A program made the translations under genes and the position numbers. Below the pieces are notes generated by a model. That model saw nothing but the letters and a program-made list of their open reading frames with translations. It made no database searches and was not told the DNA's origin. This document shows positions 12,998 to 61,351 of a stretch of DNA of 64,000 nucleotides, piece by piece. Source of the stretch: Sipunculus nudus (Eukaryota; Annelida; Sipuncula; Golfingiida; Sipunculidae); contig CM049307.1 of assembly GCA_026874595.1 (NCBI GenBank), forward strand, positions 24,526,362 through 24,590,361. The letters are read 5' to 3'. Numbering within the stretch: the stretch's first letter is position 1; each line of letters begins with the position of its first letter.

Positions 12998-13122
12998 CAT
13001 AAATATTCAGATATTCATGTACATACACAAGTACTCGAGTCCAAATTTTGGATTTGAGTACTTGGTAAGTATTACCTGGACTCGAGTACTTGAGTATGTA
13101 CATGAATATCTGAATATTTATG
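12998..13122. repeat. 46-bp near-perfect inverted repeat with 33-bp spacer
   Basis: The left arm 12,998-13,043 and right arm 13,077-13,122 are reverse complements over 46 bp with one mismatch (CACAAG against CTTGAG). The spacer is 33 bp. The arms carry ACTCGAGT and GTAC palindromes. The structure resembles a small fold-back element or a recent inverted duplication. It has no coding capacity. It lies 248 bp left of the satellite edge. Confidence 0.9.
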
Positions 13123-13370: not shown

Positions 13371-13740
13371 CAACATCAGCAGCAATATCAGGGGGTATGG
13401 GGTCCATGGATTGTGAACAACAGCTGCTATGTCAGGGGGTATAGGGTTCATTGAGGGAACAACAGGGGATATGGGTTTCATGAGCAGCTGCTGTGCCAAG
13501 TGAAATAAGGTTGATGGACTGTTAGCTACAGCTGTTATGTCAGGGGTACAGGGTTGATGGACTGAACAACAGCCATTGTGTCAGGGGTATTGGGTTGATG
13601 GACTGAACAGCAGCTGTTAGTTCAAAGGGGTATGGGGTCCATGGATTGTGGACAGCAGCTGCTATGTCAGGGGGTACAGGTTAAATAGATAAAACAACAG
13701 CTGCTATGTCAGGGGGTATAGGTTACATGGATTAAACAAC
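13371..13740 (+). repeat. degenerate left edge of the satellite
   Basis: The first units are recognisable (ATCAGGGGGTATGGGGTCCA at 13,387) but carry many substitutions and length changes, for example CAGCCATTGTGTCAGGGG and GAACAGCAGCTGTTAG. Edge units that escape homogenisation by unequal exchange are expected to look like this. Confidence 0.8.
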
Positions 13741-15724
13741 AGCTGCTATGTCAGGGAGTGCAGGGTTCATAGGATGACCAACAGCTACTACATCAGAGTG
13801 TATGGGGTCCATGGATTGTGATCAACAGCTGCTATGTCAGGGGGTAAAAGTTACATGGATTAAACAACAGCTGCTATGTCAGGGGGTATAGGTTACATGG
13901 ATTAAACAACAGCTGCTATGTCAGGGAGTGCAGGGTTCATGGGATGATCAAAAGCTACTACGTCAGAGTGTATGGGGTCCATGGATTGTGATCAACAGCT
14001 GCTATGTCAGGGTGTATAGGTTACATGGATTAAACAACAGCTGCTATGTCAGGGTGTATGGGGTCCATGGATTGTGATCAACAGCTGCTATGTCAGGGTG
14101 TATGGGGTCCATGGATTGTGATCAACAGCTGCTATGTCAGGGGGTATAGGTTACATGGATTAAACAACAGCTGCTATGTCAGGGGGTATAGGTTACATGG
14201 ATTAAACAACAGCTGCTATGTCAGGGGGTATAGGTTACATGGATTAAACAACAGCTGCTATGTCAGGGGTATAGGTTACATGGATTAAACAACAGCTGCT
14301 ATGTCAGTGAGTGCAGCATTCATGTGATGACCAACAGCTACTACGTCAGGGTGTATTGGGTCCATGGATTGTGAATAACAGCTGCTATGTCAGGGGGTAT
14401 AGGTTACATGGATTAAACAACAGCTTCTATGTCAGGGAGTGCAGGGTTCATGGGATGATCAACAGCTCCTACGTCAGGGTGTATGGGGTCCATGGATTGT
14501 GAACAACAGCTGCTATGTCAGGGGGTATAGGTTACATGGATTAAACAACAGCTGCTATGTCAGGGGGTATAGGTTACATGGATTAAACAACAGATGCTAT
14601 GTCAGGGGGTATAAGTTACATGGATTAAACAACAGCTGCTATGTCAGGGGGTATAGGATACATGGATTAAACAACAGCTGCTATGTCAGGGGGTATAGGA
14701 TACATGGATTAAACAACAGCTGCTATGTCAGGGGGTATAGGATACATGGATTAAACAACAGCTGCTATGTCAGGGGGTATAGGATACATGGATTAAACAA
14801 CAGATGCTATGTCAGGGGGTATAGGTTACATGGATTAAACAACAGCTTCTATGTCAGGGAGTGCAGGGTTCATGGGATGATCAACAGCTACTACGTCAGG
14901 GTGTATGGGGTCCATGGATTGTGAACAACAGCTGCTATGTCAGGGGGTATAGGTTACATGGATTAAACAACAGCTGCTATGTCAGGGGGTATAGGTTACA
15001 TGGATTAAACAACAGATGCTATGTCAGGGGGTATAAGTTACATGGATTAAACAACAGCTGCTATGTCAGGGGGTATAGGATACATGGATTAAACAACAGC
15101 TGCTATGTCAGGGGGTATAGGATACATGGATTAAACAACAGCTGCTATGTCAGGGGGTATAGGATACATGGATTAAACAACAGCTGCTATGTCAGGGGGT
15201 ATAGGATACATGGATTAAACAACAGATGCTATGTCAGGGGGTATAGGATACATGGATTAAACAACAGCTGCTATGTCAGGGGGTATAGGATACATGGATT
15301 AAACAACAGCTGCTATGTCAGGGGGTATAGGATACATGGATTAAACAACAGCTTCTATGTCAGGGAGTGCAGGGTTCATGGGATGATCAACAGCTGCTAC
15401 GTCAGGGTGTATTGGGTCCATGGATTGTGAACAACAGCTGCTATGTCAGGGGGTATAGGTTACATGGATTAAACAACAGCTGCTATGTCAGGGAGTGCAG
15501 GGTTCATAAGAAGATCAACAGCTACTACGTCAGGGTGTATGGGGTCCATGGATTGTGAACAACAGCTGCTATGTCAGGGGGTATAGGTTACATGGATTAA
15601 ACAACAGCTGCTATGTCAGGGAGTGCAGGGTTCATGGGATGATCAACAGCTACTACGTCAGGGTGTATTGGGTCCATGGATTGTGAACAACAGCTGCTAT
15701 GTCAGGGGGTATAGGTTACATGGA

Positions 15725-15852
15725 TTAAACAACAGCTGCTATGTCAGGGAGTGCAGGGTTCATGGGATGATCAACAGCTACTACGTCAGGGTGTCTTGGG
15801 TCCATGGATTGTGAACAACAGCTGCTATGTCAGGGGGTATAGGTTACATGGA
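15725..15852 (+). repeat. reference 128-bp B-C-D block
   Basis: B is 15,725-15,767 (43 bp, marked by GGGAGTGCAGGGTTCATGGGA). C is 15,768-15,808 (41 bp, starts TGATCAACAGCTACTACGTC). D is 15,809-15,852 (44 bp, starts TTGTGAACAACAGCTGCTAT). B plus C equals 84, so the frame is kept; D adds 44 and includes TGA at 15,812-15,814. The next B starts at 15,853. C is the only class whose consensus contains a CpG (ACGTCA). Confidence 0.9.
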
Positions 15853-16150
15853 TTAAACAACAGCTGCTATGTCAGGGAGTGCAGGGTTCATAAGATGATC
15901 AACAGCTACTACGTCAGGGTGTATGGGGTCCATGGATTGTGAACAACAGCTGCTATGTCAGGGGGTATAGGTTACATGGATTAAACAACAGCTGCTATGT
16001 CAGGGAGTGCAGAGTTCATGGGATGATCAACAGCTACTACGTCAGGGTGTATGCGGTCCAGGGATTGTGAACAACAGCTGCTATGTCAGGGGGTATAGGT
16101 TACATGGATTAAACAACAGCTGCTATGTCAGGGGGTAAAGGTTACATGGA

Positions 16151-16192
16151 TTAAACAACAGCTGCTATGTCAGGGGGTATAGGTTACATGGA
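16151..16192 (+). repeat. reference 42-bp class A monomer
   Basis: Exact consensus unit. It contains the palindrome CAGCTG at 16,159-16,164 and GGGGG at 16,173-16,177, and has no CpG. Its length is four turns of B-DNA at 10.5 bp per turn. Common variants elsewhere are GGATACATGGA, CAGATGCTATG, AAGAGCTGCT, CAGATGCCATGTCAGGAGG, GCGGGTA and CAAGGGGTA. Confidence 0.95.
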
Positions 16193-16894
16193 TTAAACAA
16201 CAGCTGCTATGTCAGGGGGTATAGGTTACATGGATTAAACAACAGCTGCTATGTCAGGGGGTATAGGTTACATGGATTAAACAACAGCTGCTATGTCAGG
16301 GGGTATAGGTTACATGGATTAAACAACAGCTGCTATGTCAGCGGGTATAGGTTACATGGATTAAACAACAGCTGCTATGTCAGGGGGTATAGGTTATATG
16401 GATTTAACAACAGCTGCTATGTCAGGGGGTATAGGTTACATGGATTAAACAACAGCTGCTATGTCAGGGGGTTTAGGTTACATGGATTAAACTACAGCTG
16501 CTATGTCAGGGGGTATAGGGTACATGGATTAAACAACAGCTGCTATGTCAGGGGGTATAGGTTACATGGATTAAACAACAGCTGCTATGTATGGGAGTGC
16601 AGGGTTCATGGGATGATCAACAGCTACTACATCAGGGTGTATGGGGTCCATGGATTGTGAACAACAGCTGCTATGTCAGGGGGTATGGGGTCCATGGATT
16701 GTGAACAACAGCTGCTATGTCGGGGATTGCAGGGTTCATGGGATGATCAACAGCTGCTGTGTCAGGGGGTATAGGTTACATGGATAAAACAACAGCTGCT
16801 ATGTCAGGAGGTATAAGTTACATGGATTAAAAAACAGCTGCTATGTCAGGGGGTATAGGTTACATGGATTAAACAACAGCTGCTATGTCAGGGA

Positions 16895-19800
16895 GTGCAG
16901 GGTTCATGGGATGATCAACAGCTACTACGTAAGGGTGTATGGGGTCTATGGATTGTGAACAACAGCTGCTATGTCAGGGGGTATAGGTTATATGGATTAA
17001 ACAACAGCTGCTATGTCAGGAAGTATAGGTTACATGGATTAAACAACAGCTGCTTTGTCAGGGGGTATAGGTTACATGGATTAAACAACAGCTGCTATGT
17101 CAGGGGGTATAGGTTACATGGATTAAACAACAGCTGCTATGTCAGGGAGTGCCGGGTTCATGGGATGATCAACAGCTACTACGTCAGAGTGTATGGGGTC
17201 AATGGATTGTGCACAACAGCTGCTATGTCAGGGGGTATAGGTTACATGGATTAAACAACAGCTGCTATGTCAGGGAGTGCCGGGTTCATGGGATGATCAA
17301 CAGCTACTACGTCAGGGTGTATGGGGTCAACATATTGTGAACAACAGCTGCTATATCAGGGGGTATAGGTTACATGGATTAAACAACAGCTGCTATGTCA
17401 GGGGGTATAGGATACATGGATTAAACAACAGCTGCTATGTCAGGGGGTATAGGTTACATGGATTAAACAACAGCTGCTATGTCAGGGGGTATAGGTTACA
17501 TGGATTAAACAACAGCTGCTATGTCAGGGGGTATAGGTTACATGGATTAAACAAGAGCTGCTATGTCAGGGGGTATAGGTTACATGGATTAAACAACAGA
17601 TGCTATGTCAGGGGGTATAGGTTACATGAATTAAACAACAGCTGCTGTGTCAGGGGGTATAGGTTACATGGATAAAACAACAGCTGCTATGTCAGGAGGT
17701 ATAAGTTACATGGATTAAAAAACAGCTGCTATGTCAGGGGGTATAGGTTACATGGATTAAACAACAGCTGCTATGTCAGGGGGTATAGGTTACATGGATT
17801 AAACAACAGCTGCTATGTCAGGGAGTGCAGGGTCCATGGGATGATCAACAGCTACTACGTCAGGGTGTATGGGGTCTAGGGATTGTGAACAACAGCTGCT
17901 ATGTCAGGGGGTATAGGTTACATGGATTAAACAACAGCTGCTTTGTTAGGGGGTATAGGATACATGGATTAAACAACAGCTGCTATGTCAGGGGGTATAG
18001 GTTACATGGATTAAACAACAGATGCCATGTCAGGAGGTATAGGTTACATGGATTAAACAACAGCTGCTATGTCAGGGGGTATAGGTTACATGGATTAAAC
18101 AACAGCTGCTATATCAGGGGGTATAGGTTACATGGATTAAACAACAGATGCTATGTCAGGGGGTATAGGTTACATGGATTAAACAACAGCTGCTATGTCA
18201 GGGGGTATAGGTTACATGGATTAAACAACAGCTGCTATGTCAGGGGGTATAGGTTACATGGATTAAACAAGAGCTGCTATGTCAGGGGGTATAGGTTACA
18301 TGGATTAAACAACAGATGCCATGTCAGGAGGTATAGGTTACATGGATTAAACAACAGCTGCTATGTCAGGGGGTATAGGTTACATGGATTAAACAACAGC
18401 TGCTATGTCAGGGGGTATAGGTTACATGGATTAAACAACAGCTGCTATGTCAGGGGGTATAGGTTACATGGATTAAACAACAGATGCTATGTCAGGGGGT
18501 ATAGGTTACATGGATTAAACAACAGCTGCTATGTCAGGGGGTATAGGTTACATGGGTTAAACAACAGCTGCTATGTCAAGGGGTATAGGTTACATGGATT
18601 AAACAACAGCTGCTATGTCAGGGAGTGCAGGGTTCATAAGATGATCAACAGCTACTACGTCAGGGTGTATGGGGTCCATGGATTGTGAACAACAGCTGCT
18701 ATGTCAGGGGGTATAGGTTACATGGATTAAACAACAGCTGCTATGTCAGGGAGTGCAGAGTTCATGGGATGATCAACAGCTACTACGTCAGGGTGTATGC
18801 GGTCCAGGGATTGTGAACAACAGCTGCTATGTCAGGGGGTATAGGTTACATGGATTAAACAACAGCTGCTATGTCAGGGGGTAAAGGTTACATGGATTAA
18901 ACAACAGCTGCTATGTCAGGGGGTATAGGTTACATGGAATAAACAACAGCTGCTATGTCAGGGGGTATAGGTTACATGGATTAAACAACAGCTGCTATGT
19001 CAGGGGGTATAGGTTACATGGATTAAACAACAGCTGCTATGTCAGGGGGTATAGGTTACATGGATTAAACAACAGCTGCTATGTCAGCGGGTATAGGTTA
19101 CATGGATTAAACAACAGCTGCTATGTCAGGGGGTATAGGTTATATGGATTTAACAACAGCTGCTATGTCAGGGGGTATAGGTTACATGGATTAAACAACA
19201 GCTGCTATGTCAGGGGGTTTAGGTTACATGGATTAAACTACAGCTGCTATGTCAGGGGGTATAGGGTACATGGATTAAACAACAGCTGCTATGTCAGGGG
19301 GTATAGGTTACATGGATTAAACAACAGCTGCTATGTATGGGAGTGCAGGGTTCATGGGATGATCAACAGCTACTACATCAGGGTGTATGGGGTCCATGGA
19401 TTGTGAACAACAGCTGCTATGTCAGGGGGTATGGGGTCCATGGATTGTGAACAACAGCTGCTATGTCGGGGATTGCAGGGTTCATGGGATGATCAACAGC
19501 TGCTGTGTCAGGGGGTATAGGTTACATGGATAAAACAACAGCTGCTATGTCAGGAGGTATAAGTTACATGGATTAAAAAACAGCTGCTATGTCAGGGGGT
19601 ATAGGTTACATGGATTAAACAACAGCTGCTATGTCAGGGAGTGCAGGGTTCATGGGATGATCAACAGCTACTACGTAAGGGTGTATGGGGTCTATGGATT
19701 GTGAACAACAGCTGCTATGTCAGGGGGTATAGGTTATATGGATTAAACAACAGCTGCTATGTCAGGAAGTATAGGTTACATGGATTAAACAACAGCTGCT

Positions 19801-22800
19801 TTGTCAGGGGGTATAGGTTACATGGATTAAACAACAGCTGCTATGTCAGGGGGTATAGGTTACATGGATTAAACAACAGCTGCTATGTCAGGGAGTGCCG
19901 GGTTCATGGGATGATCAACAGCTACTACGTCAGAGTGTATGGGGTCAATGGATTGTGCACAACAGCTGCTATGTCAGGGGGTATAGGTTACATGGATTAA
20001 ACAACAGCTGCTATGTCAGGGAGTGCCGGGTTCATGGGATGATCAACAGCTACTACGTCAGGGTGTATGGGGTCAACATATTGTGAACAACAGCTGCTAT
20101 ATCAGGGGGTATAGGTTACATGGATTAAACAACAGCTGCTATGTCAGGGGGTATAGGATACATGGATTAAACAACAGCTGCTATGTCAGGGGGTATAGGT
20201 TACATGGATTAAACAACAGCTGCTATGTCAGGGGGTATAGGTTACATGGATTAAACAACAGCTGCTATGTCAGGGGGTATAGGTTACATGGATTAAACAA
20301 GAGCTGCTATGTCAGGGGGTATAGGTTACATGGATTAAACAACAGATGCTATGTCAGGGGGTATAGGTTACATGAATTAAACAACAGCTGCTGTGTCAGG
20401 GGGTATAGGTTACATGGATAAAACAACAGCTGCTATGTCAGGAGGTATAAGTTACATGGATTAAAAAACAGCTGCTATGTCAGGGGGTATAGGTTACATG
20501 GATTAAACAACAGCTGCTATGTCAGGGGGTATAGGTTACATGGATTAAACAACAGCTGCTATGTCAGGGAGTGCAGGGTTCATGGGATGATCAACAGCTA
20601 CTACGTCAGGGTGTATGGGGTCTAGGGATTGTGAACAACAGCTGCTATGTCAGGGGGTATAGGTTACATGGATTAAACAACAGCTGCTATGTCAGGGGGT
20701 ATAGGATACATGGATTAAACAACAGCTTCTATGTCAGGGAGTGCAGGGTTCATGGGATGATCAACAGCTGCTACGTCAGGGTGTATTGGGTCCATGGATT
20801 GTGAACAACAGCTGCTATGTCAGGGGGTATAGGTTACATGGATTAAACAACAGCTGCTATGTCAGGGAGTGCAGGGTTCATAAGAAGATCAACAGCTACT
20901 ACGTCAGGGTGTATGGGGTCCATGGATTGTGAACAACAGCTGCGATGTCAGGGGGTATAGGTTACATGGATTAAACAACAGCTGCTATGTCAGGGAGTGC
21001 AGGGTTCATGGGATGATCAACAGCTACTACGTCAGGGTGTATTGGGTCCATGGATTGTGAACAACAGCTGCTATGTCAGGGGGTATAGGTTACATGGATT
21101 AAACAACAGCTGCTATGTCAGGGAGTGCAGGGTTCATGGGATGATCAACAGCTACTACGTCAGGGTGTATTGGGTCCATGGATTGTGAACAACAGCTGCT
21201 ATGTCAGGGGGTATAGGTTACATGGATTAAACAACAGCTGCTATGTCAGGGAGTGCAGGGTTCATAAGATGATCAACAGCTACTACGTCAGGGTGTATGG
21301 GGTCCATGGATTGTGAACAACAGCTGCTATGTCAGGGGGTATAGGTTACATGGATTAAACAACAGCTGCTATGTCAGGGAGTGCAGAGTTCATGGGATGA
21401 TCAACAGCTACTACGTCAGGGTGTATGCGGTCCAGGGATTGTGAACAACAGCTGCTATGTCAGGGGGTATAGGTTACATGGATTAAACAACAGCTGCTAT
21501 GTCAGGGGGTAAAGGTTACATGGATTAAACAACAGCTGCTATGTCAGGGGGTATAGGTTACATGGATTAAACAACAGCTGCTATGTCAGGGGGTATAGGT
21601 TACATGGATTAAACAACAGCTGCTATGTCAGGGGGTATAGGTTACATGGATTAAACAACAGCTGCTATGTCAGGGGGTATAGGTTACATGGATTAAACAA
21701 CAGCTGCTATGTCAGCGGGTATAGGTTACATGGATTAAACAACAGCTGCTATGTCAGGGGGTATAGGTTATATGGATTTAACAACAGCTGCTATGTCAGG
21801 GGGTATAGGTTACATGGATTAAACAACAGCTGCTATGTCAGGGGGTTTAGGTTACATGGATTAAACTACAGCTGCTATGTCAGGGGGTATAGGGTACATG
21901 GATTAAACAACAGCTGCTATGTCAGGGGATATAGGATACATGGATTAAACAACAGCTGCTATGTCAGGGGGTATAGGTTACATGGATTAAACAACAGCTG
22001 CTATGTCAGGGGGTATAGGTTACATGGATTAAACAACAGCTGCTATGTCAGGGGGTAAAGGTTACATGGATTAAACAACAGCTGCTATGTCAGGGGGTAT
22101 AGGTTACATGGATTAAACAACAGCTGCTATGTCAGGGGGTATAGGTTACATGGATTAAACAACAGCTGCTATGTCAGGGGGTATAGGTTACATGGATTAA
22201 ACAACAGCTGCTATGTCAGGGGGTATAGGTTACATGGATTAAACAACAGCTGCTATGTCAGCGGGTATAGGTTACATGGATTAAACAACAGCTGCTATGT
22301 CAGGGGGTATAGGTTATATGGATTTAACAACAGCTGCTATGTCAGGGGGTATAGGTTACATGGATTAAACAACAGCTGCTATGTCAGGGGGTTTAGGTTA
22401 CATGGATTAAACTACAGCTGCTATGTCAGGGGGTATAGGGTACATGGATTAAACAACAGCTGCTATGTCAGGGGGTATAGGTTACATGGATTAAACAACA
22501 GCTGCTATGTATGGGAGTGCAGGGTTCATGGGATGATCAACAGCTACTACATCAGGGTGTATGGGGTCCATGGATTGTGAACAACAGCTGCTATGTCAGG
22601 GGGTATGGGGTCCATGGATTGTGAACAACAGCTGCTATGTCGGGGATTGCAGGGTTCATGGGATGATCAACAGCTGCTGTGTCAGGGGGTATAGGTTACA
22701 TGGATAAAACAACAGCTGCTATGTCAGGAGGTATAAGTTACATGGATTAAAAAACAGCTGCTATGTCAGGGGGTATAGGTTACATGGATTAAACAACAGC

Positions 22801-22814
22801 TGCTATGTCAGGGA
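16895..22814 (+). repeat. higher-order repeat family I, copy 1 (5,920 bp)
   Basis: Made of a 2,746-bp half (from 16,895) and a 3,174-bp half (from 19,641). Each half begins at a C monomer with CTACGTAAGG instead of CTACGTCAGG. The halves share their first 930 bp or so, then differ: one continues with a long A run carrying CAGATGCCATGTCAGGAGG variants, the other with B-C-D blocks carrying GTATTGGGTCC. A private GCGATGTCA at 20,943 and GGAATAAAC at about 18,937 recur exactly 5,920 bp later. Confidence 0.85.
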
Positions 22815-25800
22815 GTGCAGGGTTCATGGGATGATCAACAGCTACTACGTAAGGGTGTATGGGGTCTATGGATTGTGAACAACAGCTGCTATGTCAGGGG
22901 GTATAGGTTATATGGATTAAACAACAGCTGCTATGTCAGGAAGTATAGGTTACATGGATTAAACAACAGCTGCTTTGTCAGGGGGTATAGGTTACATGGA
23001 TTAAACAACAGCTGCTATGTCAGGGGGTATAGGTTACATGGATTAAACAACAGCTGCTATGTCAGGGAGTGCCGGGTTCATGGGATGATCAACAGCTACT
23101 ACGTCAGAGTGTATGGGGTCAATGGATTGTGCACAACAGCTGCTATGTCAGGGGGTATAGGTTACATGGATTAAACAACAGCTGCTATGTCAGGGAGTGC
23201 CGGGTTCATGGGATGATCAACAGCTACTACGTCAGGGTGTATGGGGTCAACATATTGTGAACAACAGCTGCTATATCAGGGGGTATAGGTTACATGGATT
23301 AAACAACAGCTGCTATGTCAGGGGGTATAGGATACATGGATTAAACAACAGCTGCTATGTCAGGGGGTATAGGTTACATGGATTAAACAACAGCTGCTAT
23401 GTCAGGGGGTATAGGTTACATGGATTAAACAACAGCTGCTATGTCAGGGGGTATAGGTTACATGGATTAAACAAGAGCTGCTATGTCAGGGGGTATAGGT
23501 TACATGGATTAAACAACAGATGCTATGTCAGGGGGTATAGGTTACATGAATTAAACAACAGCTGCTGTGTCAGGGGGTATAGGTTACATGGATAAAACAA
23601 CAGCTGCTATGTCAGGAGGTATAAGTTACATGGATTAAAAAACAGCTGCTATGTCAGGGGGTATAGGTTACATGGATTAAACAACAGCTGCTATGTCAGG
23701 GGGTATAGGTTACATGGATTAAACAACAGCTGCTATGTCAGGGAGTGCAGGGTCCATGGGATGATCAACAGCTACTACGTCAGGGTGTATGGGGTCTAGG
23801 GATTGTGAACAACAGCTGCTATGTCAGGGGGTATAGGTTACATGGATTAAACAACAGCTGCTTTGTTAGGGGGTATAGGATACATGGATTAAACAACAGC
23901 TGCTATGTCAGGGGGTATAGGTTACATGGATTAAACAACAGATGCCATGTCAGGAGGTATAGGTTACATGGATTAAACAACAGCTGCTATGTCAGGGGGT
24001 ATAGGTTACATGGATTAAACAACAGCTGCTATATCAGGGGGTATAGGTTACATGGATTAAACAACAGATGCTATGTCAGGGGGTATAGGTTACATGGATT
24101 AAACAACAGCTGCTATGTCAGGGGGTATAGGTTACATGGATTAAACAACAGCTGCTATGTCAGGGGGTATAGGTTACATGGATTAAACAAGAGCTGCTAT
24201 GTCAGGGGGTATAGGTTACATGGATTAAACAACAGATGCCATGTCAGGAGGTATAGGTTACATGGATTAAACAACAGCTGCTATGTCAGGGGGTATAGGT
24301 TACATGGATTAAACAACAGCTGCTATGTCAGGGGGTATAGGTTACATGGATTAAACAACAGCTGCTATGTCAGGGGGTATAGGTTACATGGATTAAACAA
24401 CAGATGCTATGTCAGGGGGTATAGGTTACATGGATTAAACAACAGCTGCTATGTCAGGGGGTATAGGTTACATGGGTTAAACAACAGCTGCTATGTCAAG
24501 GGGTATAGGTTACATGGATTAAACAACAGCTGCTATGTCAGGGAGTGCAGGGTTCATAAGATGATCAACAGCTACTACGTCAGGGTGTATGGGGTCCATG
24601 GATTGTGAACAACAGCTGCTATGTCAGGGGGTATAGGTTACATGGATTAAACAACAGCTGCTATGTCAGGGAGTGCAGAGTTCATGGGATGATCAACAGC
24701 TACTACGTCAGGGTGTATGCGGTCCAGGGATTGTGAACAACAGCTGCTATGTCAGGGGGTATAGGTTACATGGATTAAACAACAGCTGCTATGTCAGGGG
24801 GTAAAGGTTACATGGATTAAACAACAGCTGCTATGTCAGGGGGTATAGGTTACATGGAATAAACAACAGCTGCTATGTCAGGGGGTATAGGTTACATGGA
24901 TTAAACAACAGCTGCTATGTCAGGGGGTATAGGTTACATGGATTAAACAACAGCTGCTATGTCAGGGGGTATAGGTTACATGGATTAAACAACAGCTGCT
25001 ATGTCAGCGGGTATAGGTTACATGGATTAAACAACAGCTGCTATGTCAGGGGGTATAGGTTATATGGATTTAACAACAGCTGCTATGTCAGGGGGTATAG
25101 GTTACATGGATTAAACAACAGCTGCTATGTCAGGGGGTTTAGGTTACATGGATTAAACTACAGCTGCTATGTCAGGGGGTATAGGGTACATGGATTAAAC
25201 AACAGCTGCTATGTCAGGGGGTATAGGTTACATGGATTAAACAACAGCTGCTATGTATGGGAGTGCAGGGTTCATGGGATGATCAACAGCTACTACATCA
25301 GGGTGTATGGGGTCCATGGATTGTGAACAACAGCTGCTATGTCAGGGGGTATGGGGTCCATGGATTGTGAACAACAGCTGCTATGTCGGGGATTGCAGGG
25401 TTCATGGGATGATCAACAGCTGCTGTGTCAGGGGGTATAGGTTACATGGATAAAACAACAGCTGCTATGTCAGGAGGTATAAGTTACATGGATTAAAAAA
25501 CAGCTGCTATGTCAGGGGGTATAGGTTACATGGATTAAACAACAGCTGCTATGTCAGGGAGTGCAGGGTTCATGGGATGATCAACAGCTACTACGTAAGG
25601 GTGTATGGGGTCTATGGATTGTGAACAACAGCTGCTATGTCAGGGGGTATAGGTTATATGGATTAAACAACAGCTGCTATGTCAGGAAGTATAGGTTACA
25701 TGGATTAAACAACAGCTGCTTTGTCAGGGGGTATAGGTTACATGGATTAAACAACAGCTGCTATGTCAGGGGGTATAGGTTACATGGATTAAACAACAGC

Positions 25801-36500: not shown

Positions 36501-36706
36501 GATGCTATGTCAGGGGGTATAGGTTACATGGATTAAACAACAGCTGCTATGTCAGGGGGTATAGGTTACATGGGTTAAACAACAGCTGCTATGTCAAGGG
36601 GTATAGGTTACATGGATTAAACAACAGCTGCTATGTCAGGGAGTGCAGGGTTCATAAGATGATCAACAGCTACTACGTCAGGGTGTATGGGGTCTATGGA
36701 TTGTGA
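30509..36706 (+). repeat. higher-order repeat family I, copies 4 and 5 (rearranged)
   Basis: From 30,509 a half like the 3,174-bp type is followed by a second, partial copy of the same type starting near 32,9xx (marker 33,217 matches 31,439 at 1,778 bp). A further CTACGTAAGG-marked half begins at 34,913, and its long A run ends at 36,706. Single-base changes are specific to this end, for example GGATGAAAC at 35,268 and TGTCACGGGG at about 36,004. The copies are still very similar to copies 1 to 3. Confidence 0.75.
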
Positions 36707-44700: not shown

Positions 44701-44860
44701 TATGTCAGGGGGTATAGGTTACATGGATTAAACAACAGCTGCTATGTCAGGGAGTGCAGGGTTCATGGGATGATCAACAGCTACTACGTCAGGGTGTATG
44801 GGGTCCAGGGATTGTGAAAAACAGCTGCTATGTCAGGGGGTATAGGTTACATGGATTAAA
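38760..44860 (+). repeat. higher-order repeat family II, 2,997-bp tandem copies
   Basis: Landmarks at 38,760, 41,757 and 44,754 are 2,997 bp apart, as are CTACGTAAGG-marked units 39,266/42,263 and 40,911/43,908. Each 2,997-bp unit contains two similar parts of 1,645 and 1,352 bp. A private change, ATACATGTATT at about 39,783, recurs at about 42,780. The third copy diverges from the pattern about 110 bp after 44,754. Confidence 0.8.
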
Positions 44861-47800: not shown

Positions 47801-50800
47801 GGGTATAGGTTACATGGATTAAACAAGAGCTGCTATGTCAGGGGGTATAGGTTACATGGATTAAACAACAGATGCTATGTCAGGGGGTATAGGTTACATG
47901 AATTAAACAACAGCTGCTGCGTCAGGGGGTATAGGTTACATGGATTAAACAACAGCTGCTATGTCAGAAGGTATAAGTTACATGGATTAAACAACAGCTG
48001 CTATGTCAGGGGTAAAGGTTTCATGGATTAAACAACAGCTGCTATGTCAGGGAGTGCAGGGTTCATGGGATGATCAACAGCTACTACGTCAGGGTGTATG
48101 GGGTCCAGGGATTGTGAACAACAGCTGCTATGTCAGGGGGTATAGGTTACATGGATTAAACAACAGCTGCTATGTCAGGGGGTATAGGTTACATGGATTA
48201 AACAACAGATGCCATGTCAGGAGGTATAGGTTACATGGATTAAACAACAGCTGCTATGTCAGGGGGTATAGGTTTCATGGATTAAACAACAGCTGCTATG
48301 TCAGGGGGTATAGGTTACATGGATTAAACAACAGCTGCTATGTCAGGGGGTATAGGTTACTTGGATTAAACAACAGATGCTATGTCAGGGGGTATAGGTT
48401 ACATGGATTAAACAACAGCTGCTATGTCAGGGGGTATAGGTTACATGGGTTAAACAACAGCTGCTATGTCAAGGGGTATAGGTTACATGGATTAAACAAC
48501 AGCTGCTATGTCAGGGGGTATAGGTTACATGGATTAAACAACAGCTGCTATGTCAGGGAGTGCAGGGTTCATGGGATGATCAACAGCTACTACGTAAGGG
48601 TGTATGGGGTCTATGGATTGTGAACAACAGCTGCTATGTCAGGGGGTATAGGTTATATGGATTAAACAACAGCTGCTATGTCAGGAAGTATAGGTTACAT
48701 GGATTAAACAACAGCTGCTTTGTCAGGGGGTATAGGTTACATGGATTAAACAACAGCTGCTATGTCATGGGGTATAGGTTACATGGATTAAACAACAGCT
48801 GCTATGTCAGGGAGTGCCGGGTTCATGGGATGATCAACAGCTACTACGTCAGAGTGTATGGGGTCAATGGATTGTGCACAACAGCTGCTATGTCAGGGGG
48901 TATAGGTTACATGGATTAAACAACAGCTGCTATGTCAGGGAGTGCCGGGTTCATGGGATGATCAACAGCTACTACGTCAGGGTGTATGGGGTCAACATAT
49001 TGTGAACAACAGCTGCTATGTCAGGGGGTATAGGTTACATGGATTAAACAACAGCTGCTATGTCAGGGGGTATAGGATACATGGATTAAACAACAGCTGC
49101 TATGTCAGGGGGTATAGGTTACATGGATTAAACAACAGCTGCTATGTCAGGGGGTATAGGTTACATGAATTAAACAACAGCTGCTGTGTCAGGGGGTATA
49201 GGTTACATGGATAAAACAACAGCTGCTATGTCAGGAGGTATAAGTTACATGGATTAAAAAACAGCTGCTATGTCAGGGGGTATAGGTTATATGGATTAAA
49301 CAACAGCTGCTATGTCAGGGGGTATAGGTTACATGGATTAAACAACAGCTGCTATGTCAGGGAGTGCAGGGTTCATGGGATGATCAACAGCTACTACGTC
49401 AGGGTGTATGGGGTCAAGGGATTGTGAACAACAGCTGCTATGTCAGGGGGTATAGGTTACATGGATTAAACAACAGCTGCTATGTCAGGGGGTATAGGTT
49501 ACATGGATTAAACAACAGATGCCATGTCAGGAGGTATAGGTTACATGGATTAAACAACAGCTGCTATGTCAGGGGGTATAGGTTACATGGATTAAACAAC
49601 AGCTGCTATGTCAGGGGGTATAGGTTACATGGATTAAACAACAGCTGCTATGTCAGGGGGTATAGGTTACATGGATCAAACAACAGATGCTATGTCAGGG
49701 GGTATAGGTTACATGGATTAAACAACAGCTGCTATGTCAGGGGGTATAGGTTACATGGATTAAACAACAGCTGCTATGTCAGGGGGTATAGGTTACATGG
49801 ATTAAACAACAGCTCCTATGTCAGGGAGTGCAGGGTTCATAAGATGATCAACAGCTACTACGTCAGGGCGTATGGGGTCTATGGATTGTGAACAACAGCT
49901 GCTATGTCAGGGGGTATAGGTTACATGGATTAAACAACAGCTGCTATGTCAGCGGGTATAGGTTACATGGATTAAACAACAGCTCCTATGTCAGGGGGTA
50001 TAGGTTACATGGATTAAACAAGAGCTGCTATGTCAGGGGGTATAGGTTACATGGATTAAACAACAGATGCTATGTCAGGGGGTATAGGTTACATGAATTA
50101 AACAACAGCTGCTGTGTCAGGGGGTATAGGTTACATGGATTAAACAACAGCTGCTATGTCAGGAGGTATAAGTTACATGGATTAAACAACAGCTGCTATG
50201 TCAGGGGTAAAGGTTTCATGGATTAAACAACAGCTGCTATGTCAGGGAGTGCAGGGTTCATGGGATGATCAACAGCTACTACGTCAGGGTGTATGGGGTC
50301 CAGGGATTGTGAACAACAGCTGCTATGTCAGGGGGTATAGGTTACATGGATTAAACAACAGCTGCTATGTCAGGGGGTATAGGTTACATGGATTAAACAA
50401 CAGATGCCATGTCAGGAGGTATAGGTTACATGGATTAAACAACAGCTGCTATGTCAGGGGGTATAGGTTTCATGGATTAAACAACAGCTGCTATGTCAGG
50501 GGGTATAGGTTACATGGATTAAACAACAGCTGCTATGTCAGGGGGTATAGGTTACATGGATTAAACAACAGATGCTATGTCAGGGGGTATAGGTTACATG
50601 GATTAAACAACAGCTGCTATGTCAGGGGGTATAGGTTACATGGGTTAAACAACAGCTGCTATGTCAAGGGGTATAGGTTACATGGATTAAACAACAGCTG
50701 CTATGTCAGGGGGTATAGGTTACATGGATTAAACAACAGCTGCTATGTCAGGGAGTGCAGGGTTCATGGGATGATCAACAGCTACTACGTAAGGGTGTAT

Positions 50801-53800
50801 GGGGTCTATGGATTGTGAACAACAGCTGCTATGTCAGGGGGTATAGGTTATATGGATTAAACAACAGCTGCTATGTCAGGAAGTATAGGTTACATGGATT
50901 AAACAACAGCTGCTTTGTCAGGGGGTATAGGTTACATGAATTAAACAACAGCTGCTATGTCAGGGGGTATAGGTTACATGGATTAAACAACAGCTGCTAC
51001 GTCAGGGAGTGCCGGGTTCATGGGATGATCAACAGCTACTACGTGAGAGTGTATGGGGTCAATGGATTGTGCACAACAGCTGCTATGTCAGGGGGTATAG
51101 GTTACATGGATTAAACAACAGCTGCTATGTCAGGGAGTGCCGGGTTCATGGGATGATCAACAGCTACTACGTCAGGGTGTATGGGGTCAACATATTGTGA
51201 ACAACAGCTGCTATGTCAGGGGGTATAGGTTACATGGATTAAACAACAGCTGCTATGTCAGGGGGTATAGGATACATGGATTAAACAACAGCTGCTATGT
51301 CAGGGGGTATAGGTTACATGGATTAAACAACAGCTGCTATGTCAGGGGGTATAGGTTACATGGATTAAACAAGAGCTGCTATGTCAGGGGGTAGAGGTTA
51401 CATGGATTAAACAACAGCTGCTGTGTCAGGGGGTATAGGTTACATGGATAAAACAACAGCTGCTATGTCAGGAGGTATAAGTTACATGGATTAAAAAAGA
51501 GCTGCTATGTCAGGGGGTATAGGTTACATGGATTAAACAACAGCTGCTATGTCAGGGGGTATAGGTTACATGGATTAAACAACAGCTGCTATGTCAGGGA
51601 GTGCAGGGTTCATGGGATGATCAACAGCTACTACGTCAGGGTGTATGGGGTCCAGGGATTGTGAAAAACAGCTGCTATGTCAGGGGGTATAGGTTACATG
51701 GATTAAACAACAGCTGCTGTGTCAGGGGGTATAGGTTACATGGATTAAACAACAGATGCTATGTCAGGGGGTATAGGTTACATGGATAAAACAACAGCTG
51801 CTATGTCAGGAGGTATAAGTTACATGGATTAAACAACAGCTGCTATGTCAGGGGGTATAGGTTACATGGATTAAACAACAGATGCTATGTCAGGGGGTAT
51901 AGGTTACATGAATTAAACAACAGCTGCTGTGTCAGGGGGTATAGGTTACATGGATAAAACAACAGCTGCTATGTCAGGAGGTATAAGTTACATGGATTAA
52001 AAAACAGCTGCTATGTCAGGGGGTATAGGTTACATGGATTAAACAACAGCTGCTATGTCAGGGGGTATAGGTTACATGGATTAAACAACAGCTGCTATGT
52101 CAGGGAGTGCAGGGTTCATGGGATGATCAACAGCTACTACGTCAGGGTGTATGGGGTCCAGGGATTGTGAACAACAGCTGCTATGTCAGGGGGTATAGGT
52201 TACATGGATTAAACAACAGCTGCTATGTCAGGGGGTATAGGTTACATGGATTAAACAACAGATGCCATGTCAGAAGGTATAGGTTACATGGATTAAACAA
52301 CAGCTGCTATGTCAGGGGGTATAGGTTACATGGATTAAACAACAGCTGCTATGTCAGGGGGTATAGGTTACATGGATTAAACAACAGCTGCTATGTCAGG
52401 GGGTATAGGTTACATGGATTAAACAACAGATGCTATGTCAGGGGGTATAGGTTACATGGATTAAACAACAGCTGCTATGTCAGGGGGTATAGGTTACATG
52501 GGTTAAACAACAGCTGCTATGTCAAGGGGTATAGGTTACATGGATTAAACAACAGCTGCTATGTCAGGGAGTGCAGGGTTCATAAGATGATCAACAGCTA
52601 CTACGTCAGGGTGTATGGGGTCTATGGATTGTGAACAACAGCTGCTATGTCGGGGGGTATAGGTTATATGGATTAAACAACAGCTGCTATGTCAGGAAGT
52701 ATAGGTTACATGGATTAAACAACAGCTGCTATGTCAGGGAGTGCAGGGTTCATGGGATGATCAAAAGCTACTACGTCAGAGTGTATGGGGTCCATGGATT
52801 GTGAACAACAGCTGCTATGTCAGGTGGTATGGGGTCCATGGATTGTGAACAACATCTGCTATGTCGGGGAGTGCAGGGTTCATGGGATGATCAACAGCTG
52901 CTAGTCAGGGTGTATGGGGTCCAGGGATTGTGAACAACAGCTGCTATGTCAGGGGGTATAGGTTACATGGATTAAACAACAGCTGCTATGTCAGGGAGTG
53001 CAGGGTTCATGCGATGATCAACAGCTACTACGTCAGAGTGTATGGGGTCCATGGATTGTGCACAACAGCTGCTATGTCAGGGGGTATAGGTTACATGGAT
53101 TAAACAACAGCTGCTATGTCAGGGAGTGCCGGGTTCATGGGATGATCAACAGCTACTACGTCAGGGTGTATGGGGTCAACATATTGTGAACAACAGCTGC
53201 TATGTCAGGGGGTATAGGTTACATGGATTAAACAACAGCTGCTATGTCAGGGGGTATAGGATACATGGATTAAACAACAGCTGCTATGTCAGGGGGTATA
53301 GGTTACATGGATTAAACAACAGCTGCTATGTCAGGGGGTATAGGTTACATGGATTAAACAACAGCTGCTATGTCAGGGGGTATAGGTTACATGGATTAAA
53401 CAAGAGCTGCTATGTCAGGGGGTATAGGTTACATGGATTAAACAACAGATGCTATGTCAGGGGGTATAGGTTACATGAATTAAACAACAGCTGCTGTGTC
53501 AGGGGGTATAGGTTACATGGATTAAACAACAGCTGCTATGTCAGGAGGTATAAGTTACATGGATTAAACAACAGCTGCTATGTCAGGGGTAAAGGTTTCA
53601 TGGATTAAACAACAGCTGCTATGTCAGGGAGTGCAGGGTTCATGGGATGATCAACAGCTACTACGTCAGGGTGTATGGGGTCCAGGGATTGTGAACAACA
53701 GCTGCTATGTCAGGGGGTATAGGTTACATGGATTAAACAACAGCTGCTATGTCAGGGGGTATAGGTTACATGGATTAAACAACAGATGCCATGTCAGGAG

Positions 53801-56767
53801 GTATAGGTTACATGGATTAAACAACAGCTGCTATGTCAGGGGGTATAGGTTTCATGGATTAAACAACAGCTGCTATGTCAGGGGGTATAGGTTACATGGA
53901 TTAAACAACAGCTGCTATGTCAGGGGGTATAGGTTATATGGATTAAACAACAGCTGCTATGTCAGGAAGTATAGGTTACATGGATTAAACAACAGCTGCT
54001 ATGTCAGGGAGTGCAGGGTTCATGGGATGATCAAAAGCTACTACATCAGAGTGTATGGGGTCCATGGATTGTGAACAACAGCTGCTATGTCAGGTGGTAT
54101 GGGGTCCATGGATTGTGAACAACATCTGCTATGTCGGGGAGTGCAGGGTTCATGGGATGATCAACAGCTGCTAGTCAGGGTGTATGGGGTCCAGGGATTG
54201 TGAACAACAGCTGCTATGTCAGGGGGTATAGGTTACATGGATTAAACAACAGCTGCTATGTCAGGGAGTGCAGGGTTCATGGGATGATCAACAGCTACTA
54301 CGTCAGAGTGTATGGGGTCCATGGATTGTGCACAACAGCTGCTATGTCAGGGGGTATAGGTTACATGGATTAAACAACAGCTGCTATGTCAGGGAGTGCC
54401 GGGTTCATGGGATGATCAACAGCTACTACGTCAGGGTGTATGGGGTCAACATATTGTGAACAACAGCTGCTATGTCAGGGGGTATAGGTTACATGGATTA
54501 AACAACAGCTGCTATGTCAGGGGGTATAGGATACATGGATTAAACAACAGCTGCTATGTCAGGGGGTATAGGTTACATGGATTAAACAACAGCTGCTATG
54601 TCAGGGGGTATAGGTTACATGGATTAAACAACAGCTGCTATGTCAGGGGGTATAGGTTACATGGATTAAACAAGAGCTGCTATGTCAGGGGGTATAGGTT
54701 ACATGGATTAAACAACAGATGCTATGTCAGGGGGTATAGGTTACATGAATTAAACAACAGCTGCTGCGTCAGGGGGTATAGGTTACATGGATTAAACAAC
54801 AGCTGCTATGTCAGAAGGTATAAGTTACATGGATTAAACAACAGCTGCTATGTCAGGGGTAAAGGTTTCATGGATTAAACAACAGCTGCTATGTCAGGGA
54901 GTGCAGGGTTCATGGGATGATCAACAGCTACTACGTCAGGGTGTATGGGGTCCAGGGATTGTGAACAACAGCTGCTATGTCAGGGGGTATAGGTTACATG
55001 GATTAAACAACAGCTGCTATGTCAGGGGGTATAGGTTACATGGATTAAACAACAGATGCCATGTCAGGAGGTATAGGTTACATGGATTAAACAACAGCTG
55101 CTATGTCAGGGGGTATAGGTTTCATGGATTAAACAACAGCTGCTATGTCAGGGGGTATAGGTTACATGGATTAAACAACAGCTGCTATGTCAGGGGGTAT
55201 AGGTTACTTGGATTAAACAACAGATGCTATGTCAGGGGGTATAGGTTACATGGATTAAACAACAGCTGCTATGTCAGGGGGTATAGGTTACATGGGTTAA
55301 ACAACAGCTGCTATGTCAAGGGGTATAGGTTACATGGATTAAACAACAGCTGCTATGTCAGGGGGTATAGGTTACATGGATTAAACAACAGCTGCTATGT
55401 CAGGGAGTGCAGGGTTCATGGGATGATCAACAGCTACTACGTAAGGGTGTATGGGGTCTATGGATTGTGAACAACAGCTGCTATGTCAGGGGGTATAGGT
55501 TATATGGATTAAACAACAGCTGCTATGTCAGGAAGTATAGGTTACATGGATTAAACAACAGCTGCTTTGTCAGGGGGTATAGGTTACATGGATTAAACAA
55601 CAGCTGCTATGTCATGGGGTATAGGTTACATGGATTAAACAACAGCTGCTATGTCAGGGAGTGCCGGGTTCATGGGATGATCAACAGCTACTACGTCAGA
55701 GTGTATGGGGTCAATGGATTGTGCACAACAGCTGCTATGTCAGGGGGTATAGGTTACATGGATTAAACAACAGCTGCTATGTCAGGGAGTGCCGGGTTCA
55801 TGGGATGATCAACAGCTACTACGTCAGGGTGTATGGGGTCAACATATTGTGAACAACAGCTGCTATGTCAGGGGGTATAGGTTACATGGATTAAACAACA
55901 GCTGCTATGTCAGGGGGTATAGGATACATGGATTAAACAACAGCTGCTATGTCAGGGGGTATAGGTTACATGGATTAAACAACAGCTGCTATGTCAGGGG
56001 GTATAGGTTACATGAATTAAACAACAGCTGCTGTGTCAGGGGGTATAGGTTACATGGATAAAACAACAGCTGCTATGTCAGGAGGTATAAGTTACATGGA
56101 TTAAAAAACAGCTGCTATGTCAGGGGGTATAGGTTATATGGATTAAACAACAGCTGCTATGTCAGGGGGTATAGGTTACATGGATTAAACAACAGCTGCT
56201 ATGTCAGGGAGTGCAGGGTTCATGGGATGATCAACAGCTACTACGTCAGGGTGTATGGGGTCAAGGGATTGTGAACAACAGCTGCTATGTCAGGGGGTAT
56301 AGGTTACATGGATTAAACAACAGCTGCTATGTCAGGGGGTATAGGTTACATGGATTAAACAACAGATGCCATGTCAGGAGGTATAGGTTACATGGATTAA
56401 ACAACAGCTGCTATGTCAGGGGGTATAGGTTACATGGATTAAACAACAGCTGCTATGTCAGGGGGTATAGGTTACATGGATTAAACAACAGCTGCTATGT
56501 CAGGGGGTATAGGTTACATGGATCAAACAACAGATGCTATGTCAGGGGGTATAGGTTACATGGATTAAACAACAGCTGCTATGTCAGGGGGTATAGGTTA
56601 CATGGATTAAACAACAGCTGCTATGTCAGGGGGTATAGGTTACATGGATTAAACAACAGCTCCTATGTCAGGGAGTGCAGGGTTCATAAGATGATCAACA
56701 GCTACTACGTCAGGGCGTATGGGGTCTATGGATTGTGAACAACAGCTGCTATGTCAGGGGGTATAGG
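43070..56767 (+). repeat. 6,847-bp tandem duplication within the satellite
   Basis: Copy 1 runs from about 43,07x to 49,92x and copy 2 from there to about 56,767. Nine or more landmarks are offset by exactly 6,847 bp: 43,351/50,198, 43,908/50,755, 44,754/51,601, 45,260/52,107, 46,151/52,998, 47,421/54,268, 48,003/54,850, 48,560/55,407, 49,364/56,211. Only three substitutions were noticed by eye: T44,547 against G51,394, G46,165 against C53,012, and T46,879 against A53,726. The boundaries lie inside identical monomers and cannot be placed to the base. Confidence 0.85.
46100..48690 (+). repeat. 1,270-bp sub-duplication inside the 6,847-bp unit
   Basis: Landmarks 46,151/47,421, 46,279/47,549 and 46,733/48,003 are each 1,270 bp apart. 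The whole pair is carried along in the 6,847-bp duplication (52,998/54,268). The second copy has private CTGCTGCGTCAG and TCAGAAGGTATAAG changes at about 47,915 and 47,965, also found 6,847 bp later. Confidence 0.75.
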
Positions 56768-59281
56768 TTATATGGATTAAACAACAGCTGCTATGTCAGG
56801 AGGTATAGGTTACATGGATTAAACAACAGCTGCTATGTCAGGGGGTATAGGTTACATGGATTAAACAACAGCTGCTATGTCAGGGGGTATAGGTTACATG
56901 GATTAAACAACAGCTGCTATGTCAGGGAGTGCCGGGTTCATGGGATGATCAACAGCTACTACGTCAGAGTGTATGGGGTCAATGGATTGTGCACAACAGC
57001 TGCTATGTCAGGGGGTATAGGTTACATGGATTAAACAACAGCTGCTATGTCAGGGAGTGCAGGGTTCATGGGATGATCAACAGCTACTACGTCAGGGTGT
57101 ATGGGGTCTAGGGATTGTGAACAACAGCTGCTATGTCAGGGGGTATAGGTTACATGGATTAAACAACAGCTGCTATGTCAGGGGGTATAGGTTACATGGA
57201 TTAAACAACAGCTGCTATGTCAGGGGGTATAGGTTACATGGATTAAACAACAGCTGCTATGTCAGGGGGTATAGGTTACATGGATTAAACAACAGCTGCT
57301 ATGTCAGGGGGTATAGGTTACATGGATTAAACAACAGCTGCTATGTCAGGGGGTATAGGTTACATGGATTAAACAACAGATGCCATGTCAGGAGGTACAG
57401 GTTACATGGATTAAACAACAGCTGCTATGTCAGGGGGTATAGGTTACATGGATTAAACAACAGCTGCTATGTCAGGGGGTTTAGGTTACATGGATTAAAC
57501 AACAGCTGCTATGTCAGGGGGTATAGGTTACATGGATTAAACAACAGCTGCTATGTCAGGGGGTATAGGTTACATGGATTAAACAACAGCTGCTATGTCA
57601 GGGGGTATAGGTTACATGGATTAATCAACAGCTGCTATGTCAGGGAGTGCCGGGTTCATGGGATGATCAACAGCTACTACGTCAGAGTGTATGGGGTCAA
57701 TGGATTGTGCACAACAGCTGCTATGTCAGGGGGTATAGGTTACATGGATTAAACAACAGCTGCTATGTCAGGGAGTGCAGGGTTCATGGGATGATCAACA
57801 GCTACTACGTCAGGGTGTATGGGGTCTAGGGATTGTGAACAACAGCCGCTATGTCAGGGGGTATAGGTTACATGGATTAAACAACAGCTGCTATGTCAGG
57901 GGGTATAGGTTACATGGATTAAACAACAGCTGCTATGTCAGGGGGTATAGGTTACATGGATTAAACAACAGCTGCTATGTCAGGGGGTATAGGTTACATT
58001 GATTAAACAACAGCTGCTATGTCAGGGGGTATAGGTTACATGGATTAAACAACAGCTGCTATGTCAGGGGGTATAGGTTACATGGATTAAACAACAGATG
58101 CCATGTCAGGAGGTACAGGTTACATGGATTAAACAACAGCTGCTATGTCAGGGGGTATAGGTTACATGGATTAAACAACAGCTGCTATGTCAGGGGGTTA
58201 AGGTTACATGGATTAAACAACAGCTGCTATGTCAGGGGGTATAGGTTACATGGATTAAACAACAGATGCTATGTCAGGGGGTATAGGTTACATGGATTAA
58301 ACAACAGCTGCTATGTCAGGGGGTATAGGTTACATGGGTTAAACAACAGCTGCTATGTCAAGGGGTATAGGTTACATGGGTTAAACAACAGCTGCTATGT
58401 CAGGGGGTATAGGTTACATGGATTAAACAACAGCTGCTATGTCAGGGGGTATAGGTTACATGGATTAAACAACAGCTGCTATGTCAGGGAGTGCCGGGTT
58501 CATGGGATGATCAACAGCTACTACGTCAGAGTGTATGGGGTTAATGGATTGTGAACAACAGCTACTATGTCAGGGGGTATGGGGTCCATGGATTGTGAAC
58601 AACAGCTGCTATGTTGGGGAGTGCAGGGTTCATGGGATGATCAACAGCAACAAGTCAGGGTGTATGGGGTCCAGGGATTGTGAAGAACAGCTGCTATGTC
58701 AGGGGGTATAGGTTACATGGATTAAACAACAGCTGCTATGTCAGGGAGTGCAGGGTTCATGGGATGATCAACAGCTACTATGTCAGAGTGTATGGGGTCC
58801 ATGGATTGTGAACAACACCTGCTATGTCAGGGGGTATGGGGTCCATGGATTGTGAACAACAGCTGCTATGTCGGGGAGTGCAGGGTTCATGGGATGATCA
58901 ACAGCTACTAGTCAGGGTGTATGGGGTCCAGGGATTGTGAACAACAGCTGCTATGTCAGGGGGTATAGGTTACATGGATTAAACAACAGCTGCTATGTCA
59001 GGGAGTGCAGGGTTCATGGGATGATCAACAGCTACTACGTCAGGCTGTATGGGGTCCATGGATTGTGAACAACAGCTGCTATGTCAGGGGGTATAGGTTA
59101 CATGGATAAAACAACAGCTGCTATGTCAGGGAGTGCAGGGTTCATGGGATGATCAACAGCTACTACGTCAGGGTGTATGGGGTCCAGGGATTGTGAACAA
59201 CAGCTGCTATGTCAGGGGGTATTGGACTAAACAACAGCTGCGATGTCAGAGGTATAGGGTTCATGGAACAACAGCTGCTCG
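56768..59281 (+). repeat. right-hand satellite tail with 718-bp duplication
   Basis: Landmarks 56,929/57,647 and 57,057/57,775 are 718 bp apart, a further local tandem duplication carrying AGGAGGTACAGG variants. After 58,480 B-C-D blocks dominate and substitutions increase. The last recognisable unit is interrupted (GATGTCAGAGGTATAGGGTTCA, then CATGGAACAACAGCTGCTCGG), ending at about 59,281. Confidence 0.7.
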
Positions 59282-59284
59282 GTT

Positions 59285-59301
59285 GGGGGGGGGGGGGGGG
59301 G
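59285..59301 (+). repeat. 17-base G run at the satellite edge
   Basis: Seventeen consecutive G directly after the last satellite unit, then AGGGC. A second G-rich patch, GGGGG-TT-GGGGGG-A-GGG, is at 59,336-59,352. Together they could form a G-quadruplex. The run length may be imprecise for sequencing reasons. Confidence 0.9.
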
Positions 59302-59608: not shown

Positions 59609-59623
59609 GTGTCGGAACGACAC
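59609..59623. other. left-end hairpin of the Helitron-like element
   Basis: GTGTCG, loop GAA, CGACAC: a perfect 6-bp stem, two bases before the ATGCCCCCGCC motif. Confidence 0.8.
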
Positions 59624-59639
59624 GAATGCCCCCGCCTTG

Positions 59640-61245: not shown

Positions 61246-61293
61246 CATTTCGGAATGACGGAAGGACGGAATGACGGACATGGGTAAAACTAT

Positions 61294-61322: not shown

Positions 61323-61351
61323 AAAAATAACATTGTCATGGTCATATTAAT

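Follow-up and report, generated by a model that had tools for sequence, protein, structure and literature searches.

A stretch of 64,000 nucleotides from the sipunculid Sipunculus nudus (assembly GCA_026874595.1, contig CM049307.1, positions 24,526,362 to 24,590,361 of the forward strand; the whole stretch is called the window below) raises the question of how some 46 kb of a tandemly repeated 42-bp unit came to carry several layers of higher-order repeats (HORs). A preliminary description of this DNA, made from its letters, had reported nine superimposed long periods on the short unit, had considered such depth uncommon for a unit of minisatellite size and had proposed that repeated segmental duplication or unequal exchange had acted here for a long time. 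In our analysis, the array is very probably a single-locus, apparently non-coding minisatellite (variable number of tandem repeats, VNTR) in gene-bearing DNA, which has grown mainly by homology-guided, in-register duplication of blocks. The "higher-order repeats" would then be the footprints of these block duplications.

Units, classes and genomic occurrence of the array

Tandem Repeats Finder (TRF) reported one array, at 13528-59222, with a period of 42 bp, 1,080.5 copies and a score of 63,614, and a wraparound alignment to the TRF unit widened it to 13376-59270 (plus strand), that is to 1,086 head-to-tail units in one orientation throughout. The two methods confirm the continuous 46-kb array first described, whose ends had been placed correctly to within about 11 bases. 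Head-to-tail units of about 10-100 bp, as found here, are those of a minisatellite. In terms of length, 904 units are of 42 bp, 158 of 44 bp, 11 of 41 bp and 8 of 43 bp; the remaining five (25, 34, 37, 39 and 45 bp) all lie at the two edges, where the units outside 41-44 bp start at 13420, 13459, 13610, 59200 and 59234. Between 13655 and 59199, no unit falls outside 41-44 bp.

Each unit was given to the nearest among three references, which yielded 764 units of class A (42 bp), 156 of class B (42 bp) and 166 of class C (44 bp). The references of A and B are separated by 9 edits, those of A and C by 9 edits and those of B and C by 12 edits, and the 41-bp and 43-bp units are indel variants of these classes. 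The four length classes that had been distinguished among about 1,080 units are real as lengths, but they correspond to three sequence classes, not four. Similarly, the 128-bp block formerly written as B-C-D does exist, but it is composed of an A-B-C triplet (42+42+44), C standing directly after B in 148 cases.

Degenerate units are restricted to the margins of the array. Indeed, the nine units with at least seven differences from their own class are all found at the edges: the left edge (13376-13696, plus strand) is made of eight degenerate units with 5-20 differences from the nearest class and lengths of 25-45 bp, and the right edge (59200-59270, plus strand) of a pair of degenerate units shortened to 34 and 37 bp, after which come an incomplete unit start and, at 59285-59301, just past the right end of the array, 17 consecutive G. 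In the interior, four units (14292, 33410, 38023 and 58644) show five or six differences from their class. Base composition changes sharply at both edges, with a G+C content of 0.43-0.46 and a GC skew of about +0.32 inside the array versus 0.27-0.42 and -0.31 to +0.11 in the flanking kilobases without array contact. The observed/expected ratio of CpG is 0.11 inside the array versus 0.31 outside.

The unit was searched for in its own genome (1,426,538,692 bases in 153 contigs, the window being at C2:24526362-24590361). An exact 18-mer has 636 forward and 0 reverse occurrences in the genome, and the window likewise has 636; when a 25-mer was allowed up to three mismatches, the genome gave 844 forward and 0 reverse occurrences and the window 844. 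The unit is locus-specific in its own genome and present on one strand, a statement that is based on the equality of genome and window totals, individual places being only partly itemised, and that extends to three mismatches in the 25-mer, more distant relatives lying outside the reach of this pattern search. When the left edge (13371-13740) was used as a genome query, 164 matches were obtained and, among the matches listed, all fall inside the array. An nhmmer profile (E up to 10) detected no seeds of the unit in the flanks of the window. An exact 28-base pattern of the monomer had 0 occurrences in viral_contigs and 0 in genome_contigs (viruses and prokaryotes, where little was expected), and four monomer strings had no match in the papers searched.

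Block duplications and their unrolling

Self-alignment and tandem-repeat decomposition had been proposed initially as checks of the layered structure; they returned one array and, in a diagonal scan of it, 253 high-identity segment pairs, of which the 90 longest were itemised. Among these, the five longest are a pair of 7,023 bp at a lag of 6,847 bp (99.89% identity), one of 6,026 bp at a lag of 5,920 bp (99.98%), one of 5,294 bp at a lag of 10,868 bp (99.75%), one of 5,056 bp at a lag of 4,948 bp (99.94%) and one of 3,661 bp at a lag of 2,997 bp (99.26%). The blocks are far more alike (99.26-99.98%) than the units within them, whose references differ by 9-12 changes in about 42, which is the property that characterises HORs. 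In addition, 82.7% of the 600-bp stretches of the array have a second copy that is at least 99% identical and at least 400 bp away.

Each of the nine lags of the preliminary description (718, 1,270, 1,352, 1,645, 2,746, 2,997, 3,174, 5,920 and 6,847 bp) has segments of at least 97% identity, and lags of 4,948 and 10,868 bp can be added to them. These lags are additive (2,997 = 1,645 + 1,352; 5,920 = 2,746 + 3,174; 10,868 = 5,920 + 4,948), and because some of them are sums of others the nine long periods are not nine independent layers.

The largest blocks, all on the plus strand, were located by the diagonal scan and the analysis of junctions. The 5,920-bp duplication occupies 16070-21989 (copy 1, which holds blocks 2,746 bp apart) and 21990-27909 (copy 2), with 0 differences in the copy proper and one in the 106-bp junction overlap. 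A third, shorter copy is found at a lag of 4,948 bp (27891-32838), with 3 differences over its 4,948 bp and about 0.95 kb absent at its left end. The 2,997-bp segment is present in two copies at 38728-44721, its lag being the sum of 1,645 and 1,352 bp. The 6,847-bp duplication covers 43044-49890 (copy 1) and 49891-56737 (copy 2), and a 1,270-bp tandem pair held by copy 1 (45806-48345) is found again in copy 2 (52653-55192); of the eight differences in this pair of segments, three are in the copy proper and five sit in the 176-bp junction overlap. A 718-bp tandem pair (56772-58207), 99.3% alike, has 12 more relatives at 97-98% elsewhere in the array.

Counted as ungapped copies at a minimum of 97% identity, the 6,847-bp block is present two times, the 5,920-bp block two, the 4,948-bp block three, the 2,997-bp block two, a 2,109-bp block of the 2,746-bp relation five, the 1,645-bp block five, the 1,352-bp block seven, the 1,270-bp block four and the 718-bp block fourteen times. 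Blocks of at least 2,997 bp occur in two or three copies and the smaller ones in 4-14, irregularly spaced; one HOR repeated many-fold in regular tandem was not found in the array. Of the second 2,997-bp copy, only a portion is covered by the 6,847-bp segment. Nesting is real yet partial, and segmental duplications that overlap one another describe the array better than a regular hierarchy does.

Written as a string of units, the array has a longest exact repeat of 141 units. In two sets of 200 permutations each, this value reached 10 at most, with a mean of 5.77 when the permutation was full and of 6.66 when the order of classes was kept. The history of the string was then unrolled greedily: at each step, the tandem duplication (eight units or more) with the lowest divergence was removed. 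Ten steps removed 640 of the 1,086 units, nine of them at a divergence of no more than 0.61%. The sizes removed (with their divergences) were 5,920 bp (0), 6,847 bp (0.0004), 4,948 bp (0.0004), 2,997 bp (0.0010), 1,778 bp (0.0039), 1,270 bp (0.0039), 422 bp (0.0047), 718 bp (0.0056), 1,645 bp (0.0061) and 506 bp (0.0197), in an order that tracks divergence and should not be taken as the proven sequence of events. Under the same procedure, 20 class-preserving shuffles lost 0-24 units. With a limit of 1% divergence, 9 steps removed 628 units, and with a limit of 3%, 14 steps removed 776; blocks of at least five units gave 14 steps and 664 units, and blocks of at least 12 units gave 9 steps and 630 units. 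A few young duplications account for over half of the array, and the 446 leftover units need older rounds that are beyond the resolution of the greedy method. The long duration proposed earlier is supported only in part, the large layers being young.

Growth of the array and rival explanations

Repeated segmental duplication or unequal exchange, as proposed in the preliminary description, agrees with the near-identical adjoining blocks and with the units of 41-44 bp between 13655 and 59199. According to the theory of homology-guided unequal exchange, degenerate units should be confined to the edges of an array and register should be kept, and it is this mechanism that we infer from the regularity of unit length, as we infer the absence of function from the tests reported below. 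In eight of ten segments, which were chosen by hand from the diagonal scan, the copies adjoin with an overlap of similarity of 14-664 bp. The array could have started from a few units of about 42 bp, from which the A, B and C variants and the A-B-C triplets would have derived. Its later growth would be due chiefly to blocks of about 0.4 to 6.8 kb being duplicated in tandem, in register and guided by homology, through unequal exchange (between sister chromatids or between alleles) or through repair synthesis on a misaligned repeat, and no function would be needed beyond being recombination-prone.

Several points weigh against this account. The 2,746- and 3,174-bp relations involve segments that are not contiguous, and simple side-by-side duplication does not explain them, so that deletion or gene conversion has probably also been at work in the array. 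The greedy steps leave the 446 units mentioned above, and their outcome varies with the settings (9-14 steps, 628-776 units). Instability is deduced from one sequence, of a single haplotype, individual and species. Finally, part of the near-perfect match between the 5,920-bp copies could be due to assembly, the youngest layers being the most open to assembly error.

This last point can be extended to an explanation in which the layering is partly an artefact, an allele or a block having been joined twice and having produced false tandem copies of 5,920 and 6,847 bp. Such an error would fit the near absence of differences between adjacent copies (0 over 5,920 bp, 3 over 6,847 bp) in a sequence taken as assembled, but it is made unlikely by the few differing sites in the 6,847- and 4,948-bp copies, by the third left copy devoid of about 0.95 kb, by the 98.5-Mb contig in which the window sits and by the divergence of the 1,645-, 1,270- and 718-bp steps (0.39-0.61%), which is above the expectation for one block joined twice. 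Instead of unequal exchange, the blocks could also stem from rolling-circle replication of excised circles and their re-insertion. Rolling-circle amplification of excised circles is a mechanism known for satellites, and it too should leave adjoining blocks of several kb that are nearly identical; a passage on plant satellites touches on their amplification and homogenisation (PMC2543021). This origin is nevertheless quite improbable for the present array, in which block sizes differ, blocks of at least 2,997 bp occur only two or three times (smaller ones do recur 4-14 times), most copies adjoin their source and the unit is found at one locus. The probability that the array belongs to a satellite family of the dispersed or centromeric type is, in our view, minimal: it is a tandem array with a higher-order arrangement, like alpha satellite, but the counts in genome and window are equal for both patterns (636 for the exact 18-mer and 844 for the 25-mer with at most three mismatches), as for a minisatellite or VNTR present at one locus only, and a single array was found where such a family would have many arrays or abundant genome copies. 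Moreover, it is positioned at 24.5 Mb of the 98.5-Mb contig, between two protein-coding genes.

Homology-guided duplication of a non-functional repeat was also weighed against roles for the units themselves. Tandem protein-binding sites or a transcribed structural RNA would make the array a functional element. Two motifs are present in many units, CAGCTG with 830 occurrences in the array versus 8 in the flanks and TGTCA with 888 versus 41, and the references of A and B begin with the same 18 bases. However, when the 68 distinct variants of A are compared, 54 differences fall on those 18 positions and 62 on the other 24, so that the shared bases vary about like the rest and give no sign of a guarded binding site. 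No Rfam match was found in the array at gathering scores, single units fold no better than shuffles (z of 1.32 for A, 0.50 for B, 1.08 for C and 1.20 for reverse A) and no canonical G-quadruplex motif is present in the array on either strand. A structural RNA or hairpin was rejected on the basis of the Rfam and folding results, and a functional element as a whole appears very unlikely. 

That the units encode a repetitive protein, with 14 residues per 42 bp, is hardly conceivable. One frame of the A unit is open, and open stretches reach 299 codons; on the other hand, the C units (44 bp, 166 of the 1,086) shift the frame, and each plus frame contains 609-679 stops. No sign of coding constraint was detected in the substitutions of 749 of the 764 A units (15 were dropped for length or divergence; 68 distinct sequences) in the only open frame: the 53 distinct changes comprise 8 synonymous, 40 non-synonymous and 5 stop changes, where 11.0, 38.1 and 3.8 were expected, and are neutral as to that frame. 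When seven open frames (five from the flanks, one across the right edge and one from the array) were compared with Pfam, none reached a cut-off, the translated stretch of the array giving DUF2584 (23 bits versus 25) and KH_DEAH11 (15.2 versus 27), and the flanks Ten_N (15.7 versus 27) and DUF2069 (16.1 versus 23.3). An open frame kept under constraint, as in hornerin, was not found, and the frame shifts of the C units, the stops, the neutral changes and the sub-cut-off Pfam scores led us to reject a coding repeat.

Genomic surroundings and known systems

Two genes that point towards each other enclose the array, a CUB/EGF gene on the left and a TM9SF-type gene on the right. In the ten kilobases to the left of the window (L009), open frames have FXa_inhibition/EGF_CA and three CUB matches over the Pfam cut-offs, a fourth CUB frame is just under the cut-off (20 versus 21.4), and the last CUB exon recognised has an open frame that stops 877 bp ahead of the window. 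PDB look-ups for this gene returned other CUB or EGF proteins. Judging from the order of its CUB and EGF domains, it is presumably of the tolloid/BMP1 type, the protease domain not having been seen and the frames of L011, a separate stretch, not having been scanned with Pfam. A separate 39-bp minisatellite (15.8 copies) is located in the CUB/EGF gene region at L009:919-1527. To the right of the window, an EMP70 (TM9SF) exon is encoded on the minus strand (Pfam score of 63.5 versus a cut-off of 27), for which a PDB search gave 0 matches at E up to 1. The last codons and the stop of this gene run in from the right, towards the array, at 63979-64000 (minus strand), and the minus-strand frame 63979-64074 (window coordinates), which includes the stop codon, is what we take to be the TM9SF C-terminus. 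The right end of the array is about 4.7 kb beyond this stop codon. A 78-bp minisatellite of 8.4 copies is also present in the TM9SF-type gene, to the right of the window (L010:2334-2989, minus strand); its unit repeats an apparent splice acceptor and the first codons of the EMP70 exon, the exon start being about eightfold in tandem (the splice site was read by eye).

Other repeats are present in the flanks, which are reminiscent of lophotrochozoan repeats. A possible mobile element lies beside the array at 59610-61325, with about nine tandem units of about 160-180 bp at 59670-61238, a short degenerate 'GGACGGAATGAC'-like stretch and ends that read ATGCCCCCGCC and GGCGGGGGCAT. Its layout, and its layout only, recalls bivalve Helentron-type elements with central repeats of 140-180 bp, as they are presented in part of the source (PMC7492417); this and a second oyster paper (PMC8268682) are relevant to that element at most. 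About 250 bp to the left of the array, a 46-bp inverted repeat (12998-13122; 98% complementary, arms 33 bp apart) is possibly a small foldback element. The left flank also contains short tandem arrays at 5658-5944 and 1152-1492 (126-bp and 72/143-bp units); the translated end of the 126-bp stretch (CAPMPEFQQ) recurs in L011, which suggests a dispersed repeat.

The view that such depth of layering is uncommon on a unit of minisatellite size is not supported. In a table passage of a human survey of arrays larger than 10 kb, six of the 18 VNTR rows shown are marked as HOR (PMC2588610). They include a VNTR at 1p36.32 with a 40-bp unit and 52,940 bp, one at 3q29 with a 38-bp unit and one at Xp22.33 with a 61-bp unit and HORs of 1,600 and 2,400 bp; the same source gives HORs of 3.36, 3.6 and about 5.8 kb on human GAATG and HsatII arrays, those of 3.36 and 3.6 kb being on GAATG. 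As tabulated there, the human VNTR arrays resemble the present one in unit size, array size, restriction to a single locus and irregular, kilobase-sized higher-order blocks built on a short unit, but belong to another genome, have other unit sequences and show periods of 1.6 and 2.4-2.5 kb, compared with up to 6.8 kb here. The 39-bp unit of hornerin (HRNR) carries a 'quartic' HOR according to the relevant part of PMC9584774, and the likeness concerns the unit of about 40 bp and the layered multiples (0.35, 0.7 and 1.4 kb in hornerin); hornerin layers are intragenic and regular (a nine-mer, then two doublings), whereas those described here are apparently non-coding, irregular and larger. With alpha satellite, in so far as the same two sources cover it (PMC9584774, PMC2588610), the array shares near-identical multi-unit blocks built from more diverged units, but its unit is of 42 and not 171 bp, it occupies one interstitial locus, and neither a long run of a single HOR nor evidence of a centromere is found at it. 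No mollusc array of this kind is named in the portion of the mollusc-oriented literature considered, a group that is possibly the wrong comparison for the host. Layered order on short units is not new: the array is of the same kind as the human VNTR HOR arrays and hornerin, an ordinary kind of which it is a good example, and it opens no new class of sequence.

More tentatively, higher-order structure might be under construction at present at this single, gene-flanked minisatellite, as blocks of about 0.4 to 6.8 kb are duplicated one after another in register. If this were true, the locus would be a readable record of how HORs originate without a centromere, and the order and sizes of the events could be recovered from one allele. 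The array is also a marker for which high variability would be expected. The weight of the finding is modest: at an ordinary locus between two genes, one can follow almost event by event how layered repeats grow, a process mostly discussed for centromeres.

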